This document shows positions 14,564-57,730 of a stretch of DNA of 64,000 bases, one piece after another; within the stretch, counting starts at the first letter, position 1; every line of letters starts with the position of its first letter. A program made the position numbers and the translations under genes. The notes beneath the pieces were generated by a model that did not search any database, was not told the origin of the DNA, and was given only the letters and a program-made list of their open reading frames with translations. The stretch is from Candidatus Syntrophocurvum alkaliphilum (GTDB lineage: Bacteria; Bacillota; Syntrophomonadia; Syntrophomonadales; Syntrophomonadaceae): the NCBI RefSeq assembly GCF_009734445.1, contig NZ_CP046457.1, positions 1 through 64,000 on the forward strand, written 5' to 3'.

Positions 14564-14575
14564 AAGAAATAAAAC

Positions 14576-14680
14576 ACTTATCTCCGAGTGGCTTTGTCTA
14601 AGGTATATGCTACTATGATGATGCTACCGATGGGTTTTTAGTAGAAATGCTTAAGCCTCCCGTATTTGGAAAGGAGAGTG
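14576..14680 (+). ncRNA. Molybdenum/tungsten cofactor (Moco RNA) riboswitch
   Basis: An outer stem TCTCC (14581-14585) / GGAGA (14673-14677) encloses about 90 nt that end with the conserved block GCCTCCCGTATTTGGAAAGG. As I recall it, this block is nearly the same as in the E. coli moaA leader that defines the Moco RNA motif. The RNA binds molybdenum or tungsten cofactor. It lies directly upstream of a tungstate importer, so a tungsten-cofactor (Tuco) variant is likely. A second copy in this window (24712-24811) keeps the same motif but has a covarying outer stem, which supports the structure. Confidence 0.85.
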
Positions 14681-14698
14681 AAATGATATCCAGAATAT

Positions 14699-14737
14699 AA
14701 CCTGGACGCTTTTACTTTCTTTGCGTCTAGGTTTTTT
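14699..14737 (+). terminator. Attenuator terminator of the tup riboswitch
   Basis: 11-bp stem AACCTGGACGC with one G-T pair and six T, 19 nt after the riboswitch P1 and 74 nt before tupA. This is a transcription-termination expression platform, expected to shut off tup genes when cofactor is plentiful. Confidence 0.85.
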
Positions 14738-14811
14738 GTTATGGGGATTTATCATGAATTTACTTAAAAACTGGATTATGTTTACTATAAACTTTAAGAT
14801 TAGGAGATAAA

Positions 14812-21922: not shown

Positions 21923-22084
21923 TTACCTTGATTTTCCTTTAGGCATAAAAGTTTCACATGCGGTATCGTCAGTATTGCTAACCATATGGTCTTTCACTCT
22001 AGATTTTACTTCAATTGTGGAAGCTAGGCACCATTCACTTTGATTATAATGACATTCCTCTACTTTGCATTTGATTTCTGACAT
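21923..22084 (-). CDS. DUF1540 protein (53 aa)
   Basis: ATG at 22084 with GGAGG 7 nt upstream encodes 53 residues starting MSEIKCKVEECHYNQSEWCL. Four Cys are spaced C-x4-C-x7-C-x22-C, and the C-terminal CETF matches the DUF1540 pattern (C-x4-C-x-YN, then C, an A-x-x-I strand and CETF). DUF1540 proteins are small, probably metal-binding, and common in spore-forming Firmicutes; their role is unknown. It is convergent to the MFS gene. I am confident of the family. Confidence 0.8.
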   Translation of the reverse strand: MSEIKCKVEECHYNQSEWCLASTIEVKSRVKDHMVSNTDDTACETFMPKGKSR

Positions 22085-22161
22085 TTTTTCACCTCCGTTT
22101 TTTGCATTCTATATTAATTTTTTCAAAAAATATAATATTATACTAAAAATTATGATAAATA

Positions 22162-22213
22162 TTTTTGCTCAGCCGATTCAATAGTCTAAGTTTAGCTTTT
22201 TGCAGTGAAATCA
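22162..22213. repeat. Solo arm of the 229-bp MITE-like element
   Basis: TTTTTGCTCAGCCGATTCAA through AGTTTAGCTTTTTGCAGTG is almost the reverse complement of the left arm of the element at 51890-51952, with only a few changes. The rest of the element is absent. Confidence 0.75.
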
Positions 22214-22286
22214 ATTAAAAATTCTAGCCATCATAGGTTAATAACTTGTATAATTAACAAAAATACTAGTAAATTAGGAGGTTTTT

Positions 22287-23060
22287 ATGTATCAAGAAAT
22301 AATCAACTTGACAAAACAATTTACCTTGACTAGTCCTTTAAATAGAGTTGAAGATTTAAATAATATGCGTATTTATGATCCGCCACTTATTGCAGTAGCT
22401 GATGCTAATGACCCTTTATTTGTACAATTAAAAAATGATGATATAGTTGGGAATGATCATAAATCGCCTTTTGAATGGCAAAGAGAAGCTAAAAGTGTTA
22501 TAGCTTATTTTTTGCCATATACTGAGAAGGTTCGAGTAACTAATAGAGGTGATACAATGCCTTCAATGGAATGGTTATATGGCAGATTTGAAGGTGAAGA
22601 ATTTAATAAAGCATTAAGTCAATATCTAGTGAATGAATTGACAAAAAAAGGAATGAAAGTAGTTAGTCCGTTTTTAGATCCTAGTTTTAAAATAAATAAT
22701 AGAAAAAGTAATTGGTCGGAAAGACATGTAGCTTTTATTGCTGGATTAGGAACATTCAGTCTTTCTAAATCTCTCATAACGGCTAAAGGAGCAGCAGGTC
22801 GATTGGGTAGTGTTATAGTAGATACTGAGCTTAGCGTAACTAATCGGCCTTATACACACCTTGAAGAATATTGTATATTTTGTGAATTGTGCATTGATCG
22901 CTGTCCACCAGAGGCTATAACTTCAGAAAGTAAAGACCATCTTATTTGTGCAGATTTTATAGATAATAAAATAAGGCCAAAATACAAGCCTAGATATGGG
23001 TGTGGCAAATGTCAAACAGCAGTACCCTGTGAATCAAAAATTCCAGTCAATGTAAAATAA
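22287..23060 (+). CDS. QueG-related 4Fe-4S protein
   Basis: 257 residues, TAGGAGG 6 nt upstream. The C-terminal part has an 8Fe-type arrangement: CIFCELCIDRCPPEAI at about 200-215, then CGKCQTAVPCE near the end. The N-terminal region (AYFLPYTEKV, ERHVAFIAGLGTFSLS) matches the epoxyqueuosine reductase fold. It is shorter than true QueG (about 380 residues) and lacks the HEAT-repeat tail, so it belongs with the reductive-dehalogenase-like or QueG-like ferredoxins of unknown substrate. Cobalamin dependence cannot be judged. A terminator follows. Confidence 0.7.
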   Translation: MYQEIINLTKQFTLTSPLNRVEDLNNMRIYDPPLIAVADANDPLFVQLKNDDIVGNDHKSPFEWQREAKSVIAYFLPYTEKVRVTNRGDTMPSMEWLYGRFEGEEFNKALSQYLVNELTKKGMKVVSPFLDPSFKINNRKSNWSERHVAFIAGLGTFSLSKSLITAKGAAGRLGSVIVDTELSVTNRPYTHLEEYCIFCELCIDRCPPEAITSESKDHLICADFIDNKIRPKYKPRYGCGKCQTAVPCESKIPVNVK

Positions 23061-23080
23061 CAGAATAAGACATAGTAAAT

Positions 23081-23114
23081 AAGACAGAGGTTTTTTTGCA
23101 AGCACCTCTGTCTT
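23081..23114 (+). terminator. Terminator after QueG-like gene
   Basis: 11-bp stem AAGACAGAGGT / ACCTCTGTCTT, with T-rich loop and AT-rich tail. Confidence 0.65.
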
Positions 23115-23282
23115 ATATAATATAAAATATCTTTTGAACTTACTTAAGAAGGGTAACAATATATATGTTAAAAAATAAGTTTATATTTAATTTTAATCAT
23201 TATTATATTATAGTTTTTATAAATACTAAGAAAGATATGTTATTTTTGCAAAGTTTTTTATTAATAACATTTAGGAGAAACC

Positions 23283-23789
23283 ATGGATACGTACCTTTTT
23301 AATTACATACAAGTATTGTTAGAAGAAGCCCATATTATAACATTATTTGCAACCTTAGTTTTTACTTTAACAGTAGCACCAATAAACAAAGAAACGGTTG
23401 TAATAACTTTAGCTATAATGTCAGGGACAGGATTAATAAGTCCATTTTTTGGCTTTAGTGCTCTTGTATTAGCTAATTACATTAGTTATTTTTTGTTCTT
23501 TTTTATTGGTCGTTTTTCTAAGGCATTACAAAAATTAATTTTAAATGATAGAACCTCTGCTAAAATGGAAAAACGAATTGATAGAAGCAATCAATTTATA
23601 GAAAAATATGGTGCGATGTCTATCATATTTGGATATTTTGTACCTGGGATCAGACAGGTTTTACCTTTAATAATGGGTATAAGTACTTTTAAGGCATTAA
23701 GGTTTATGTGGATTGCTTTTTGGGGATCAATTATTTGGACAGGAGTTTATTATTTTGTGGTTTTATCACTTACAGATTTATGGATATAG
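23283..23789 (+). CDS. DedA/VTT-family membrane protein
   Basis: 168 residues, TAGGAGAAACC before the ATG. Four to five hydrophobic helices with the DedA/SNARE-associated (VTT) pattern: re-entrant FTLTVAPINKETVVI near the N-terminus, then EKYGAMSIIFGYFVPGIRQVLPLIMGIS, the family's conserved F-x-R-x-x-P-G-x-R-type region, here with GYFVPGIRQ. Members act as lipid (undecaprenyl phosphate or phosphatidylethanolamine) flippases or support membrane potential. It ends 25 bp before the TrmO gene, so they may be co-transcribed. Confidence 0.8.
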   Translation: MDTYLFNYIQVLLEEAHIITLFATLVFTLTVAPINKETVVITLAIMSGTGLISPFFGFSALVLANYISYFLFFFIGRFSKALQKLILNDRTSAKMEKRIDRSNQFIEKYGAMSIIFGYFVPGIRQVLPLIMGISTFKALRFMWIAFWGSIIWTGVYYFVVLSLTDLWI

Positions 23790-23814
23790 ATTATAGAAAT
23801 ATAGGAGATTATTA

Positions 23815-24621
23815 ATGAATCAAATTACACTAAATCCTGTAGGAAAAGTAATATCTGAACGTAATAGTCCAGACACTATGCCTTTAGGAGGCACTGATTC
23901 TATTATAGAAATATTTGAAGAATATAGTGATGCACTATTGCGAATTGAAGAAAACTCCCACTTGTGGGTTCTTTCTTGGTTTCACGAATCACCTAGAAAG
24001 TCCTTAAGGGTTAACCCCAAACGGCTTAATCCAGATTTAGAAGAATTTGGTGTATTTGCTTTAAGAGCATTTGATAGACCTAACCCTATTGGGTTATCAC
24101 TTGTGAAACTTGAGAAGGTGGAGAGAAGTTTTTTATATGTTCAAGGGTTAGATGCAATAAATAACACACCTGTATTAGATGTTAAACCCTATTTTGAAAA
24201 TGATGTTATTTTTTCTCCAAAAACACCATATATACGTAGGAAAAACAGAGAAATGCGCCAACAATTAATCTTAAAACGAGGCTTTGCCTACCATCAAGAA
24301 AAATGTTTAGATTTATTATTAGCCGTTAGAATGGCAGTAATAGCGGAAGAAAAATTAGGGCACTTGCAAAATGATGATTTAGTAATAAATGCAAAAGGAA
24401 CTACCTGTTTTATAGATGCTTTGCAAGGTATAACTCACGCACGCTTAGCTAATCCACCACGATTAAGTTACTCTATCGAAGCATCAATCTCGGAATCTAT
24501 ATGGACTAAAGACGACAAGCAATTGGTTATTAAAACTAAAAATACTAATTATACTGAGGAAAACTTGTTAAACATGGCAGATGAAGATCTATTTATGATT
24601 GATTTATATTTTGGTATCTAA
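23815..24621 (+). CDS. TrmO-type tRNA methyltransferase domain fused to FmdE-like domain
   Basis: 268 residues. Residues 1-145 are the TsaA/TrmO (YaeB) beta-barrel: NPVGKV, SHLWVLSWFHE, GVFALRAFDRPNPIGLSLVKL and LDVKPYF are the SAM-binding signature strings of the enzyme that N6-methylates t6A37 in tRNA-Thr. Residues ~155-268 look like an FmdE domain: CLDLLLAVRMAVIAEEKLG and then GTTCFIDALQGITHA, which matches the family's C-x-x-DAIQ-x-x-TG motif except that the G is replaced. FmdE partners formylmethanofuran dehydrogenase, a Mo/W enzyme. A Mo/W cofactor riboswitch lies 90 bp downstream. The TrmO part is solid; the FmdE match is by eye. Confidence 0.75.
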   Translation: MNQITLNPVGKVISERNSPDTMPLGGTDSIIEIFEEYSDALLRIEENSHLWVLSWFHESPRKSLRVNPKRLNPDLEEFGVFALRAFDRPNPIGLSLVKLEKVERSFLYVQGLDAINNTPVLDVKPYFENDVIFSPKTPYIRRKNREMRQQLILKRGFAYHQEKCLDLLLAVRMAVIAEEKLGHLQNDDLVINAKGTTCFIDALQGITHARLANPPRLSYSIEASISESIWTKDDKQLVIKTKNTNYTEENLLNMADEDLFMIDLYFGI

Positions 24622-24691
24622 AATATTGTTGCATTATTATAAAAAATTTAATTAATAAAAAAGGAAAAAGATAATAAATATAGAATAACTA

Positions 24692-24697
24692 TATAAT
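24692..24697 (+). promoter_or_regulatory. -10 box before orphan riboswitch
   Basis: TATAAT 15 bp before the riboswitch outer stem. A good -35 box is not visible at normal spacing, so read-through from the TrmO gene is also possible. Confidence 0.4.
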
Positions 24698-24711
24698 ATA
24701 AAGGAATATTG

Positions 24712-24811
24712 GTCTTCGAGCTATTGAGTCTAAAGATTTATATCCATGACTTTTTAGCCGCTGGGTTAGCACAAGAAATTGGTTAGCCTCCCTGTGATTT
24801 GGAAAGAAGAC
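24712..24811 (+). ncRNA. Second Mo/W cofactor riboswitch, no gene downstream
   Basis: Outer stem GTCTTC (24712-24717) / GAAGAC (24806-24811) encloses the same conserved parts as the tup riboswitch: CGAG after the 5' strand and GCCTCCCTGTGATTTGGAAA before the 3' strand. The stem bases differ from the tup copy but stay paired, which is covariation. The nearest plus-strand gene downstream is the aor ferredoxin, 1.7 kb away, beyond three terminators and an opposed gene. Confidence 0.8.
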
Positions 24812-24843
24812 GTGTACATAAAGCATAATTTTATGGTTTAATT

Positions 24844-24865
24844 AGGCACGGTTTCGTGTCTTTTT
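24844..24865 (+). terminator. First terminator after orphan riboswitch
   Basis: Stem GGCACG / CGTGTC with GTTT loop and five T, 32 nt after P1. This is the spacing expected of a riboswitch attenuator. Confidence 0.8.
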
Positions 24866-24889
24866 CATTTAAATGTTTTATGTGCCCAG

Positions 24890-24913
24890 GCACAGGTAGA
24901 CTGTGCTTTTTTT
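24890..24913 (+). terminator. Second terminator after orphan riboswitch
   Basis: Stem GCACAG / CTGTGC with GTAGA loop and seven T. Part of its 5' side could pair alternatively with the preceding GGCACG hairpin. Confidence 0.8.
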
Positions 24914-24972
24914 ATTTTTGAAAAATAGAATTACTCTCTTTCCCCGGGAGTAGTTAGTTTTCTTCTATAATT

Positions 24973-25003
24973 AGCTGTTAACTTATGTTAGCAGCTTTTT
25001 TTT
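24973..25003 (+). terminator. Third terminator after orphan riboswitch
   Basis: 10-bp stem AGCTGTTAAC / GTTAGCAGCT with a TTAT loop and eight T. Confidence 0.8.
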
Positions 25004-25112
25004 CAATATTGGTTTAAATATTGATTCTTTTTATGAAAAGTGGATTATTATTTTATTTTTTTTATGTATCTAAAATTAGAAAAATATACAAAATCGCTTC
25101 TGTGTTTAGTTG

Positions 25113-26066
25113 TTAATTTCTAATTACTATAAAAATGATATACCCAATATATGTTAAAGTTAAGATAATACCTTCTATTCTGTCTATTTTTCTACCTGTA
25201 ATTGCAAATATATAGGTTATAGTTGTTATGATAAGTAATATTGAAAAATCTACATATAGTTTACTGTCTACTTCAATAGGATTGATAACTGCTGAAATTC
25301 CTAAAACAAATAATATATTAAAAAGTCCCGAACCTATTATGTTACCCATAGCTATATCAATTTTCTCTTTTATTGATGCTATTGCAGCTATAACAAGCTC
25401 TGGCAATGATGTTCCTAATGAGACTATTGTAAGTCCAACTAAAGTTTCACTTATTCCCCAAGCTAAAGCTATGTTTGTAGCTGATTTAACTACTAAGTCC
25501 CCGCCTAAGATAATCGCTACCAAACCAATTATAAAAAAAAGAATACTTTTTGGTAGTGTCATTGTCTTTATTTCATCTACTTCTTCTTCTGTTTCCTTGG
25601 ACATGAATGCTAGTTCTACAAGATAAAATATAAATATACCTAGTCCTAATAGCAGTATCAAGCCGTCTGCTCTTGATATAAGATTTTGGGGTTGTCCACC
25701 TAAGTAAACATCTAAAGACAAGAGAAACATTAAAGCGGTGGCATATATAGATAATGGGAATTCTTTTATAACTGTTGTTTTTTTAATTTTAATTGCCCTT
25801 ATAGTAGACGCTACACCTACAGCAAGAAGAAGGTTAAACATATTTGAACCTATTACATTTCCTAAAACAAGGTCACCAGAACCTTGTAGCGAAGCATTTA
25901 TGCATATGGCGGCTTCTGGTGCACTAGTGCCGAAAGCTACAATGGTAAGCCCAATTAATAGAGGAGGTACATTAGTTATTTTAGCTATTGAAGATGCACC
26001 ATCAACAAAAATATCCGCTCCTTTAATTAAAAGAACAAACCCTATAATTAATAAAATATAGTCCAT
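25113..26066 (-). CDS. CaCA-family Na+/Ca2+ (or K+/Ca2+) antiporter
   Basis: 317 residues with about ten transmembrane helices in two inverted halves. The alpha-repeats carry the ion-coordinating motifs GLTIVAFGTSAPEAAI (about 40-55) and GLTIVSLGTSLPELVI (about 205-220), with GNVIGSNMFN and GNIIGSGLFN following each. The family (YrbG-like) exchanges Ca2+ for Na+ or H+ across the membrane. AAAGGTGA lies about 9 nt before the ATG. Transcription runs toward the terminator-rich DNA of the orphan riboswitch, so the two are convergent. No partner gene. Confidence 0.88.
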   Translation of the reverse strand: MDYILLIIGFVLLIKGADIFVDGASSIAKITNVPPLLIGLTIVAFGTSAPEAAICINASLQGSGDLVLGNVIGSNMFNLLLAVGVASTIRAIKIKKTTVIKEFPLSIYATALMFLLSLDVYLGGQPQNLISRADGLILLLGLGIFIFYLVELAFMSKETEEEVDEIKTMTLPKSILFFIIGLVAIILGGDLVVKSATNIALAWGISETLVGLTIVSLGTSLPELVIAAIASIKEKIDIAMGNIIGSGLFNILFVLGISAVINPIEVDSKLYVDFSILLIITTITYIFAITGRKIDRIEGIILTLTYIGYIIFIVIRN

Positions 26067-26346
26067 TTATTTATTTCACCTTTATAAATTATTTGCAATG
26101 TTGCTATAGGGGTTATAACAATAGGGCTTAGATTAGGCACTATTATTTAAAGCCTATATACTATTGTGCATGCTTTTCTTTATAATCATGTATAAATTTT
26201 TTATTTCTGCTGACTTTAGATTATTATCTTATTTTTTTATGTATTTACTATAAATTTAAAGCTTACCAGCAATTACACAATAAAAAAAATCTTTCAATAA
26301 CTACAGGTATTTACCTAATAAACTTATAAGAAAAAAATAGTAAAAG

Positions 26347-26377
26347 GCGCAACTACTAATAGTTGCGCTATCTTTTT
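26347..26377 (+). terminator. Terminator upstream of aor operon
   Basis: 9-bp stem GCGCAACTA / TAGTTGCGC and a TCTTTTT tail. There is no plus-strand gene before it for 1.7 kb, so it either insulates the aor promoter or ends an unannotated plus-strand transcript. Confidence 0.75.
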
Positions 26378-26383
26378 GATTTA

Positions 26384-26452
26384 TTGTCCCACTGGGACAA
26401 CTTATAATCGCCCATGTACATACTTGTCCCGAAACAAAAAAGTTATTATTAT
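26384..26452 (+). promoter_or_regulatory. aor promoter with TTGTCCC operator-like repeats
   Basis: TTGTCCC at 26384 and its inverse GGGACAA at 26394 form a 7-3-7 palindrome; a third TTGTCCC at 26424 provides the -35 (TTGTCC), followed 17 bp later by TATTAT (26447-26452). The repeats are 40 bp apart, about four helical turns. A repressor or activator site is likely. The leader to the ferredoxin is about 70 nt. Confidence 0.5.
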
Positions 26453-26529
26453 ATGAACTAAAGAAATTAAAAAGTCAATTGAAGTTATTGGTTTATTAAT
26501 TATTGGACTAATTGTTGGAGGGAATTTTA

Positions 26530-26937
26530 ATGGCTAAAGTATTGAAAACCCAGGAAATGGAGAGGTGTATTGCATGTTATTCGTGTATGCAGGCATGTGC
26601 AAGGGAAGTTAAGAAAAGCTTTTCACTGCAATATGCTGCTATACGTATTAAAACTAGAGGAGGACTACAAAGTAAGCTTATAGCAGATATTTGTAGAGGA
26701 TGTACTAATCCGCCATGTGCTGAAAGCTGTAGTTTTCAAGCTTTAGTACCACGGAAAGGTGGAGGAGTTAAGCTTATAGAGGATAAATGTACAGGATGTG
26801 AAAAGTGTATTCCTGCTTGTCCTATTGGATACATAAAACTAGATCCTACAAGTGAGAAAATTATTATGTGTATTCATTGTGGTATATGTGCTAAGTATTG
26901 TCCACATGAAATTATTAAACTTAAGGAAGTGAGATAA
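26530..26937 (+). CDS. Polyferredoxin partner of AOR (four 4Fe-4S clusters)
   Basis: 135 residues from ATG 26530, preceded by GGAGGG at 7 nt; an upstream TTG frame start is not needed. Sixteen Cys fall in four groups: CIACYSCMQAC, CRGCTNPPCAESC, CTGCEKCIPAC and CIHCGICAKYC, as in HycB/FdhB-type electron-transfer subunits. It ends directly at the aor ATG with no gap, so the pair is translationally coupled, and it is the likely electron carrier subunit between AOR and ferredoxin or another acceptor. Cytoplasmic; no Tat or Sec signal. Confidence 0.88.
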   Translation: MAKVLKTQEMERCIACYSCMQACAREVKKSFSLQYAAIRIKTRGGLQSKLIADICRGCTNPPCAESCSFQALVPRKGGGVKLIEDKCTGCEKCIPACPIGYIKLDPTSEKIIMCIHCGICAKYCPHEIIKLKEVR

Positions 26938-28698
26938 ATGTTTAATCGAGAATATATACGAGTTTTATATATAGATCTTAGTACTAGAACTTTTGACATC
27001 AAAGATAGAGCTGATCTTTCATTGTATTTAGGTGGAGTGGGAATAGCTTCCAAACTATTAGATGAAGAACTACAGTATGATCTAAGTCCATTGGATGTAG
27101 AACAGCCCATTATTTTTGCTATTGGTGCTTTATCTACTATATATCCAGTAGTAACAAAAACTGTATGTATGTTTAGGTCACCTTTGACAGGTAATTTAGG
27201 TGAAAGTTATGCTGGCGGTCGTTTAGCTATGTCTATGCTCTATTCAGGTTATGATGCCATTGTTATAAAAGGTCAAGCTAATCGTCCCGTTTATCTTTCT
27301 ATAGGATCACGCCATGTAGAAATAAAAAATGCAGACCCAATTTGGGGTACCACTACTGAAGAATCAGCGCGATATCTCCGAGAAATGGAAGAAGGTAGGG
27401 GGTTAAGGTCCATTGTTAGAATAGGTCAAGCAGGAGAAAGCCAAATTCGATTTGCTAACCTAAATGTAGATACTTATAGACACTTTGGCAGACTAGGAGC
27501 TGGTGCAGTATTTGGAAGCAAAAACTTAAAAGCACTGGTGATAAATGGAGAAAATAATTATCCTATTCCTAAAGAAAACTTTAAGAATTATCGTAAGATG
27601 TATAAGGAAATCTATGACAAAGTAGTTAATACTGAAATTATGGAAAAGTATCATGACTTAGGAACTCCTGTGAATGTAAAACAACTAAATGATAAACAAG
27701 GATTACCAACACGCAATCTTACTTCAGGTAGTTTTGAATATGCAGATGAATTATCAGGTGAATCGTTTGCTAAAGAGCGTTTAGTACGAAAGCTAGCATG
27801 TGTAGCATGTCCGGTTGGATGTATTCACATAGGGCAGTATAGGCGTATGTTTGCAGATCGTAGCCATGAATATGAAACATTAAATGTAAGTTATGATTAT
27901 GAATTGATTTTTGCTCTAGGAAGTTTTATAGGTATTAGCAGTAAAGATGAGTTTTTTGAATTGCTAGAAAAAGTAGAGGCATATGGTATGGATGTTATTA
28001 CTATGGGAGTACTATTAGGTTGGCTAACTGAAGCTTATAAAAATGGCTTAATAAAAGAAGAAGATTTAGGAACACATTTAGAGTTTGGTTATACTGAAGG
28101 ATATTCAAAGGTTTTAGAAGGCCTAATTAGTGCTCGTAATGAATTGTATCAAACCCTAGCATTAGGAACTGAAGCAGCAGCAGATGAGTATGGTGGTAAA
28201 GAGTATGCGATGACTTTAGGAAAACACGAAATGACCGGCTACCATACTGGTTATGGGGCGGTTTTAGGACAAGCAGTCGGGACACGTCATTCTCACCTAG
28301 ATAATGCTGGTTATGCAGTAGATCAGACAGTTGATGTTAAAGAAAAAGATAAGTTTGTAGATGCAATTTTTCAAGAAGAAATTACAAGATGTCTATCTAA
28401 TAGCTTGGTGATATGCCTTTTTGCTCGAAATGTATATGATTTAGAAACAACAGTTAGAGCATTTAATGCTATAGGAATTAATAAAAGTGAGGATGAGCTA
28501 AAAGATATCGCTGAAAGGATTTATGCTTTAAAACTAGAAATTAAACGAAAAATGGGATTTGATTTTAAGTCACTTCGCTTCCCTAAAAGATTTTTCGAAA
28601 CACCTTATAGATATGGAAAAATGGATGAAGAAGTTATGCAAGATCTCTTATCTAGATATATAGCAAAAGTGGAAAGTTTAGTGGCAAAAAACGCTTAA
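26938..28698 (+). CDS. aor: Tungsten aldehyde ferredoxin oxidoreductase
   Basis: 586 residues. AOR family signatures run through the protein: the N-terminal domain binding the bis-tungstopterin (SPLTGNLGESYAGGRLA, YSGYDAIVIKG, HFGRLGAGAVFGSKNLKA) and the domain holding a single 4Fe-4S cluster with C288, C291, C295 (CVACPVGC) and C493. The enzyme interconverts aldehydes and carboxylic acids with low-potential electrons; related family members act on other aldehydes or on aromatic rings (benzoyl-CoA reductase BamB). Coupling to a four-cluster ferredoxin resembles the AOR/BamBC style. The tungsten would come through tupABC. A strong terminator follows. Confidence 0.9.
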   Translation: MFNREYIRVLYIDLSTRTFDIKDRADLSLYLGGVGIASKLLDEELQYDLSPLDVEQPIIFAIGALSTIYPVVTKTVCMFRSPLTGNLGESYAGGRLAMSMLYSGYDAIVIKGQANRPVYLSIGSRHVEIKNADPIWGTTTEESARYLREMEEGRGLRSIVRIGQAGESQIRFANLNVDTYRHFGRLGAGAVFGSKNLKALVINGENNYPIPKENFKNYRKMYKEIYDKVVNTEIMEKYHDLGTPVNVKQLNDKQGLPTRNLTSGSFEYADELSGESFAKERLVRKLACVACPVGCIHIGQYRRMFADRSHEYETLNVSYDYELIFALGSFIGISSKDEFFELLEKVEAYGMDVITMGVLLGWLTEAYKNGLIKEEDLGTHLEFGYTEGYSKVLEGLISARNELYQTLALGTEAAADEYGGKEYAMTLGKHEMTGYHTGYGAVLGQAVGTRHSHLDNAGYAVDQTVDVKEKDKFVDAIFQEEITRCLSNSLVICLFARNVYDLETTVRAFNAIGINKSEDELKDIAERIYALKLEIKRKMGFDFKSLRFPKRFFETPYRYGKMDEEVMQDLLSRYIAKVESLVAKNA

Positions 28699-56405: not shown

Positions 56406-57680
56406 TTAAACTTCTCCAACTTTATTGCTGGAGTAAATTTGATTTTTAGTCAGCAAGCCAAAAATCAGACGTACTAATTTACGCGATGTAAGTGCGAGTG
56501 CTCTTTTGTGTTGGTGAGTAGTTACTTCACTATATTTTTTAAGGTAAAAATCTTTGTATTCAGGCACATGGTTCTTAACGCTATTTGCAGCCTCGATTAA
56601 GTAATACCTTAGATATTTATTACCAGTTTTAGTCATACGAGTATCATCAGCAGAATAGTTTCCAGATTGGTTTACTCTCCAGGTAAGACCAGCATATTTA
56701 GCAAAAGCATCGTGAGAGTCAAAGGAAGAAATAGTACCTATTTCGGCAAGAATACCGCTAGCAAGCACTGGTCCGATGCCTGGAACTGAAATAAGAGATT
56801 GATACTCTGTAGTATTAAGACCTTTAATAGTTTTTGTAATAGCTTTATCAATAGTTTTTATTTCATCTTCGAAGGCCTTAATTATATTAAAGGAAGAAGC
56901 AATTGAGGTGTTTAAAGGCTCATATAACATTTTATCTAAACGATAAGAATCTCTAGCTGCTTTTTGCAGTAGCTTAGCGGTCTCATAAGGATTAGCAAAA
57001 CGATTCTTACCCTTAGCAGACACAAAAGCTACAAGATCATCAATAGAAGAATAAGTAATATCGTCTAGAGATAAAAATTCAGTTAAAACAGCAGCAGAAG
57101 TAGTGCCATAGGTATTAGAAAAAGGCTTGTTATCTTTATCCAAAACAGCCAACTCACTAAACTTTAAATAAATATTAGAAACCATATACGCTTTTTCTCT
57201 GGTAATACATTCAACCAAATGAAGTCTATGCCTAGAAAGTCTTTGCAAAGCAAGAAACTGAGCGCCGCGCCAAGGTTTGCAAGTAATTCGACCAACTCTA
57301 GCGAAGTCGGCAATTACAAAAGCATCTAACGGATCGGTCTTATTCATATCAACAAAAGATTTTCTGTAATTAGCAACAGACTTAGGGTTAAGACAGTAGA
57401 CTAGAGGCTTAAAAAACAATAAGTCTTGGTTAGAGGAAAGAAAATTAGCAATATGAGTACTATAAAATGAGGTTGATTCTAAAGCTATAACCACATATTT
57501 TAAGCCATTGGAATTTAAACAAGTAACAATACTATCTAAAATAGCTTCAGCACCTGGTTGATTATTTTGAGTCTTTAAACTTAGGAGTTTATTACCTTGA
57601 AAATCAAGAGCACACAAAACATTGGTTTTTGAACTAACATCAATACCAACGAATAAAGTTGATAGAACATTGTTCTTCAT
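56406..57680 (-). CDS. IS110-family transposase (DEDD type)
   Basis: 424 residues from ATG 57680, with GGTGGTG just upstream; the 13-codon extension to a TTG is unneeded. The N-terminal RuvC-like DEDD domain has Asp14 (VGIDVSSKTN), Glu68 (ALESTS) and Asp116/Asp119 (KTDPLDAF). The C-terminal Transposase_20 domain has SVPGIGPVLASGILAEIG and the catalytic-serine region WRVNQSGNYSADD. The frame is intact, so the element may be active. IS110 recombinases use a structured RNA from the element's noncoding end to choose target and donor. Inserted in an ABC transporter operon, opposite strand. Confidence 0.92.
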   Translation of the reverse strand: MKNNVLSTLFVGIDVSSKTNVLCALDFQGNKLLSLKTQNNQPGAEAILDSIVTCLNSNGLKYVVIALESTSFYSTHIANFLSSNQDLLFFKPLVYCLNPKSVANYRKSFVDMNKTDPLDAFVIADFARVGRITCKPWRGAQFLALQRLSRHRLHLVECITREKAYMVSNIYLKFSELAVLDKDNKPFSNTYGTTSAAVLTEFLSLDDITYSSIDDLVAFVSAKGKNRFANPYETAKLLQKAARDSYRLDKMLYEPLNTSIASSFNIIKAFEDEIKTIDKAITKTIKGLNTTEYQSLISVPGIGPVLASGILAEIGTISSFDSHDAFAKYAGLTWRVNQSGNYSADDTRMTKTGNKYLRYYLIEAANSVKNHVPEYKDFYLKKYSEVTTHQHKRALALTSRKLVRLIFGLLTKNQIYSSNKVGEV

Positions 57681-57730
57681 CAAATCACCACCTTTCATAG
57701 GAAGATAATGGTGGAACAATTATTAAAGGA

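Follow-up and report, generated by a model that had tools for sequence, protein, structure and literature searches.

When a metal becomes scarce, RyhB-type small RNAs (sRNAs) turn off the enzymes that depend on it; RyhB itself is controlled by the Fur protein. The RNA that we propose in the following would act by a similar logic, but its control would come from a riboswitch within its own transcript rather than from Fur.

This riboswitch belongs to the Moco/Tuco class (RF01055; PMC2408646), with which it shares the sequence and fold of the aptamer, the P3-less type associated with tungsten use and the presence of transcription attenuators. Members of the class occur as tandem copies in Syntrophomonas wolfei (PMC2408646), and forms without the P3 stem correlate with the use of a tungsten cofactor, Tuco (Regulski et al., 2008; PMC2408646). 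The class was described as controlling adjacent genes in cis, whereas we predict a trans-acting antisense RNA; the terms 'antisense' and 'formate dehydrogenase' are absent from that description (PMC2408646). In the section of a review that deals with them, tandem Wco riboswitches upstream of hydrogenases, i.e. the same riboswitch class as discussed here, are listed as preceding genes unrelated to cofactor synthesis, and this section makes no mention of an anti-fdhA segment in such leaders (PMC9481103).

Riboswitch-controlled regulatory RNAs are known from Listeria (PMC8079631). AspocR, an antisense RNA controlled by a B12 riboswitch, is likewise turned off by the cofactor; if the latter is absent, the read-through form reduces the use of a pathway that depends on it. 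AspocR is, however, 1.4 kb long and antisense to pocR, the regulator gene next to it, whereas the RNA proposed here is about 300 nt long and would use 41 nt against an enzyme mRNA encoded 476 kb away. Rli55 is also made without the cofactor and prevents the synthesis of cofactor-dependent enzymes, but does so by sequestering the protein EutV instead of base-pairing with an mRNA. Finally, SreA pairs in trans with the 5' region of an mRNA, but is active in its terminated, ligand-bound form and not, as predicted here, in the read-through form. We found no paper that combines the Moco riboswitch, an sRNA and formate dehydrogenase.

A riboswitch of proposed tungsten type without a same-strand gene nearby

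The locus lies in a stretch of 64,000 nucleotides from Candidatus Syntrophocurvum alkaliphilum, hereafter the window; its features are collected in Table 1. The complete 2.36-Mb genome contains three Moco RNAs, of which the one at 24702-24825 is the second. Its match to the covariance model RF01055 (69.1 bits; gathering score 36; E 1.4e-14) bears out the preliminary description of this locus, which had recognized a second Moco-type riboswitch from the sequence. The covarying outer stem reported there is equally real: P1 (GUCUUC 24712-24717 / GAAGAC 24806-24811) features CUUC/GAAG where the consensus has CUCC/GGAG, a compensatory change. The P3 stem is missing, its positions being deleted in the RF01055 alignment, and by the rule of Regulski et al. 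we propose that the aptamer is of the tungsten-cofactor type. The remaining two Moco RNAs are found upstream of the tungstate-transporter gene tupA and of moaA; the tupA copy presumably senses the same signal. Directly before the aptamer, the sequence offers a possible, weak candidate for a promoter.

As had been noted, the riboswitch is followed by a gene in the opposite direction, a CaCA-type antiporter gene reading from 26066 to 25113, and has no gene on its own strand for 1.7 kb. The next + strand genes, for a 4Fe-4S protein (26512 or 26530) and an aldehyde:ferredoxin oxidoreductase (AOR; 26938), lie behind this opposed gene.

Table 1. Features of the riboswitch locus and related elements in the window
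Feature	Position	Strand	Details
Possible -10 box TATAAT	24692..24697	+	Sequence; transcription start near 24703; weak -35
Moco/Tuco riboswitch aptamer, P3-less	24702..24825	+	RF01055 69.1 bits; own model R1 87.9 bits
Hairpin T1 with U tract, first possible attenuator	24844..24866	+	-8.2 kcal/mol
Hairpin T2 with U tract, likely main attenuator	24888..24918	+	-11.0 kcal/mol
Antisense segment (T3 and the stretch after T3)	24929..24969	+	Complementary to G000:C1:501183-501223
Terminator T4, end of the proposed sRNA	24973..25003	+	-13.2 kcal/mol; 10 pairs, 8 U
CaCA-type calcium/sodium antiporter gene	25113..26066	-	Convergent neighbour; outside the system
Another P3-less Moco/Tuco RNA	14570..14694	+	5' of tungstate transporter gene tupA (14812)

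Hairpins and alternative folds

Three terminators had been described after the aptamer. These hairpins exist, but a scan lists four terminator-like sites on the + strand (24844-24861, 24888-24908, 24929-24955 and 24973-24996), the third of which (T3) has a poor U tract and forms the beginning of the 41-nt antisense segment 24929-24969 described below. The region 22000-28000 holds 10 such sites, compared to 2.7 +/- 1.8 in shuffled sequences. T1 starts at 24844, 32 nt past P1, at the distance originally given for the first attenuator.

Folding of growing transcripts points to T2 as the likely regulated element. Nucleotides 24886-24896, on the 5' side of T2, can be bound by the aptamer core (24791-24802), which would create an antiterminator. 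In a transcript reaching nt 24898, this antiterminator fold is favoured over the P1 fold (-58.8 vs -54.0), while at nt 24912, with T2 complete, the P1 + T2 fold prevails (-65.5 vs -62.2). In this model, the mutually exclusive folds around T2 look like a kinetically controlled OFF switch. We also considered T1, with the 3' strand of P1 and the 3' arm of T1 as antiterminator; nine pairs are possible, but at nt 24866 this alternative is less stable by 8.5 kcal/mol, and T2 is therefore preferred. No same-strand open reading frame of at least 60 aa was found between the aptamer and T4, and the read-through product, as judged from its sequence, would be non-coding and terminated.

The predicted read-through RNA is complementary to the fdhA ribosome-binding site

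When the tail of the riboswitch (24826-25004) is compared with its own genome, the best non-self match is the ribosome-binding site (RBS) of fdhA, at 501183-501223 and on the correct (antisense) strand, 476 kb from the riboswitch. The matching segment starts 103 nt after the Moco RNA and would be aimed at a formate dehydrogenase mRNA. It covers positions -43 to -3 relative to the fdhA start codon, an interval that takes in the final part of a nuoF-like gene as well as the Shine-Dalgarno (SD) region of the following fdhA, including the SD sequence itself. In this duplex, 37 of the 41 positions are paired, 22 of them contiguously, with an energy of -44.6 kcal/mol; the longest perfect run comprises 19 Watson-Crick pairs with nuoF codons upstream of the SD. 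With the internal structure paid for, the gain on dimerization amounts to -26.4 kcal/mol.

The target operon has the order nuoE-nuoF-fdhA and encodes the alpha subunit of an NAD-type formate dehydrogenase, a molybdopterin oxidoreductase with an in-frame UGA at codon 354 (in DHCARLUHS; selenocysteine). No Moco RNA was found at the fdh locus of this genome, and several relatives carry one just 5' of the same NAD-type fdhA (L014, L018, L024, L096 and L102). The RNA 24702-25003 may, we infer, replace a cis riboswitch by one acting in trans; if so, it would exemplify regulation that has moved from cis in the relatives to trans here. The segment 24929-24969 was seen in one genome, the comparison including no other from the same genus; a search of genome contigs for a sister species returned only two distant TrmO-FmdE matches.

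Could this complementarity have arisen by chance? The ungapped antisense score is 64, whereas the maxima in 40 composition-matched simulated genomes (order-3 Markov model, trained on 113 kb of this genome) average 49.0 +/- 2.3 and reach at most 54. Extrapolation with a Gumbel estimate places the chance of such a score at about 1e-4, and additional weight, beyond this figure, comes from the identity of the best site: it belongs to a formate dehydrogenase RBS, and this is the enzyme that the relatives had led us to predict. The simulation replaced the BLAST E-value as evidence because the latter is weak here, with the reversed query scoring similarly (1.9e-4) to the antisense match (6.7e-4). When duplex energies were ranked for about 113 kb of this genome, the fdhA site came first among non-self sites by a moderate margin (-44.6 vs -37.9 for the next), and the RBS regions of four other Mo/W genes reach scores of 18-30. 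For the sequence before 24929, the fdh locus contains no match worth noting. Neither do the tails of the other Moco RNAs show anything comparable there, except for one match with a score of 48: 37 GU-rich nt of the tupA leader tail (14695-14811) are antisense to an FdhE-like coding region (L153 4094-4130), which is probably a chance match. By these comparisons, the fdhA RBS appears to be the specific target of the read-through part, and translational repression would be the expected consequence.

Conserved anti-fdhA segments in relatives

A recurrent segment, CCCANUCUUUUUCUUCCC, stands upstream of a terminator in Moco RNA tails from related genomes. As a search pattern, it is present in 39 of 61 genomes, with almost no matches for the reversed control, and its sites fall mainly into two classes. 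At sites of the first class, the opposite strand encodes the motif KWEEKDWDWM of the formate dehydrogenase alpha subunit; an example from the present genome is L153:6443-9523, identified by Pfam as a molybdopterin oxidoreductase. Sites of the second class have a terminator after the segment; among the 24 copies aligned, 17 are located 68-187 nt after one or more Moco RNAs. The arrangement of Moco RNAs followed at this distance by a conserved CCCAAUCUUUUUCUUCCC segment and a terminator is found in 17 genomes. The segment is nearly invariant in the alignment while its flanks vary and, where both sequences were available, it is complementary over 16-28 nt to an fdhA of the same genome, one of the other formate dehydrogenase type. 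A search of 398 genomes from the phylum returned an exact form in 7, all of them members of the same order, and the segment matches no Rfam family at gathering scores.

The window RNA has the layout and the enzyme in common with these RNAs, and its spacing of 103 nt falls within their range, but the antisense sequence, the type of the target gene and the exact site differ. The UCCCAAUCUUUUUCUUCCC segment with its terminator (the family of alignment A3) is absent after the window RNA, and with up to one mismatch allowed, the pattern occurs in this genome only inside the fdnG-type fdhA. The window RNA would instead be directed against the fdhA type not targeted in the relatives, and against its RBS.

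Regarding their context, five copies of the second class are stand-alone elements before an opposed gene, as in the window, and eight are found in leaders of apparent periplasmic [FeFe]-hydrogenase operons, where one or two Moco RNAs precede the anti-fdhA segment and terminator (L133, L134, L143, L158, L164, L096, L094 and L101). The hydrogenase operon was checked with Pfam for L101 (Fe_hyd_lg_C, Fe_hyd_SSU and cytochrome b561) and assigned by visible similarity for the others. It is possible that these leader copies couple the control of both enzymes, hydrogenase on and formate dehydrogenase off, which could be a reason for tungsten-cofactor riboswitches 5' of hydrogenases. A purely cis role of the element is also possible in these 8 of the 17 relatives. 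Across the order, we lean slightly towards a scenario in which W/Mo-cofactor riboswitches feed a network of anti-formate-dehydrogenase RNAs, either stand-alone or in hydrogenase leaders: at low cofactor, a single transcript would yield hydrogenase and silence formate dehydrogenase, switching the exported electron carrier from formate to hydrogen. For anaerobes whose life depends on electron export, the choice between these two carriers is a central issue.

Some copies of the segment lie apart from any Moco RNA. In five cases (L145, L150, L151, L156 and L157), the segment and a terminator are located at the 3' end of formate dehydrogenase operons, after an FdhE-like gene and before the gene of an HTH-PBP regulator; these might constitute an autoregulating 3'-end sRNA. 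In two further cases, the segment adjoins NiFe-hydrogenase small-subunit genes (L165 1691-1708 and L166 1858-1875).

A proposed mechanism

From the computed aptamer, hairpins, alternative folds, complementarity and comparative pattern, we infer, with a probability of roughly three in four, that a riboswitch turned off by its cofactor controls a trans-acting sRNA which represses fdhA when the cofactor is scarce. A stand-alone transcript would start near 24703. With plentiful tungsten (or molybdenum) cofactor, the predicted ligand, the aptamer would close, T1/T2 would form and an RNA of about 160-215 nt would be released. With scarce cofactor, the aptamer core would pair with the 5' arm of T2, the polymerase would read on and an sRNA of about 300 nt, ending at T4, would result. 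Its segment 24929-24969 would then pair with the final part of the nuoF-like gene, together with the SD region of fdhA, and block fdhA translation. Through the other two Moco RNAs, the same low-cofactor signal would increase the uptake of tungstate (tup) and the synthesis of molybdopterin (moaA); with these raised and fdhA lowered, supply would therefore go up and use would go down. Counting against this sRNA are the weak promoter, the two attenuator-like hairpins, both of which would have to be passed, and the fact that its antisense sequence, target gene and site are not those of the relatives.

The proposed mechanism gives the 'orphan' riboswitch a purpose. If true, it would represent a base-pairing sRNA under riboswitch control that silences an enzyme using the riboswitch's ligand and so spares this ligand. 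Methods for a direct test of the prediction already exist, and a similar screen can be applied to other orphan riboswitches.

Alternative explanations

The riboswitch was previously suggested to be the leftover of a deleted W/Mo gene, which would make the hairpins remnants of cis attenuators. The loop of T3, CUCUUUCC, is indeed of the type that pairs with the aptamer sequence GGAAAG in other Moco leaders, so that T3 resembles an ordinary Moco attenuator loop, and an SD-like GGAAAGGAG in the aptamer accounts for part of the complementarity to the SD. However, the 19-pair run lies in the nuoF codons upstream of the SD, beyond what this motif explains, and the antisense score clearly surpasses its simulated range. 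Moreover, P1 has been maintained through compensatory change, and relatives show the same layout with a conserved antisense segment. We therefore consider this origin unlikely; the orphan riboswitch is probably not a relic.

A short, stand-alone cofactor-binding RNA, i.e. the terminated form acting by itself as a sponge, a reservoir or an SreA-like trans actor, comes closest among the three functions suggested at the outset. The stand-alone transcript with its early terminators fits this proposal, and the stand-alone nature is retained in our reading, but the RNA carries a segment against the fdhA RBS and would thus be more than a binder. As an account of the locus, the short form is very improbable: it leaves this segment and the fourth strong terminator without a reason, and the part before 24929 shows no notable match to the fdh locus.

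There is also little to recommend the riboswitch as the former leader of the tungsten AOR operon (26512-28698), from which an inserted CaCA gene would have cut it off. This operon of a tungsten enzyme does lie 1.7 kb downstream on the same strand, and the CaCA gene has no close homologue in most family members. Yet T2, T4 and a further terminator at 26346 intervene, and such a split is unlikely because no Moco RNA is present in the available flank upstream of the closest AOR homologues (43-70% identical; L050-L057); a missing downstream gene was rejected on the same grounds.

The initial suggestion that the riboswitch regulates antisense transcripts running into the CaCA gene has the convergent geometry in its favour and is scarcely credible, given that about 110 nt separate the end of T4 from the CaCA stop codon and that no sequence links W/Mo to this antiporter.

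Neighbouring genes and further observations

A TrmO-FmdE fusion-like protein, common in this family, is encoded at 23815-24621 of the window. Its gene had been put forward as a clue to the riboswitch, but a Moco RNA lies within several kb in only 8 of 31 loci of relatives, in varied orientations, and no functional link to the window RNA emerged. In one genome (G025; L063 1514-2518), a TrmO-FmdE-like gene is located directly 3' of a Moco RNA, which suggests a role of this protein in Mo/W metabolism. Elsewhere in the window, a transposase-like gene, of the IS110 type by eye, (56406-57719) separates the gene of an ABC permease from that of its ATPase. Finally, one locus of a relative (L096 64-4147; G017) contains seven Moco RNAs in about 4 kb: two lead into a hydrogenase and an anti-fdhA element on one strand, four into fdhA on the other, and one is situated further on.
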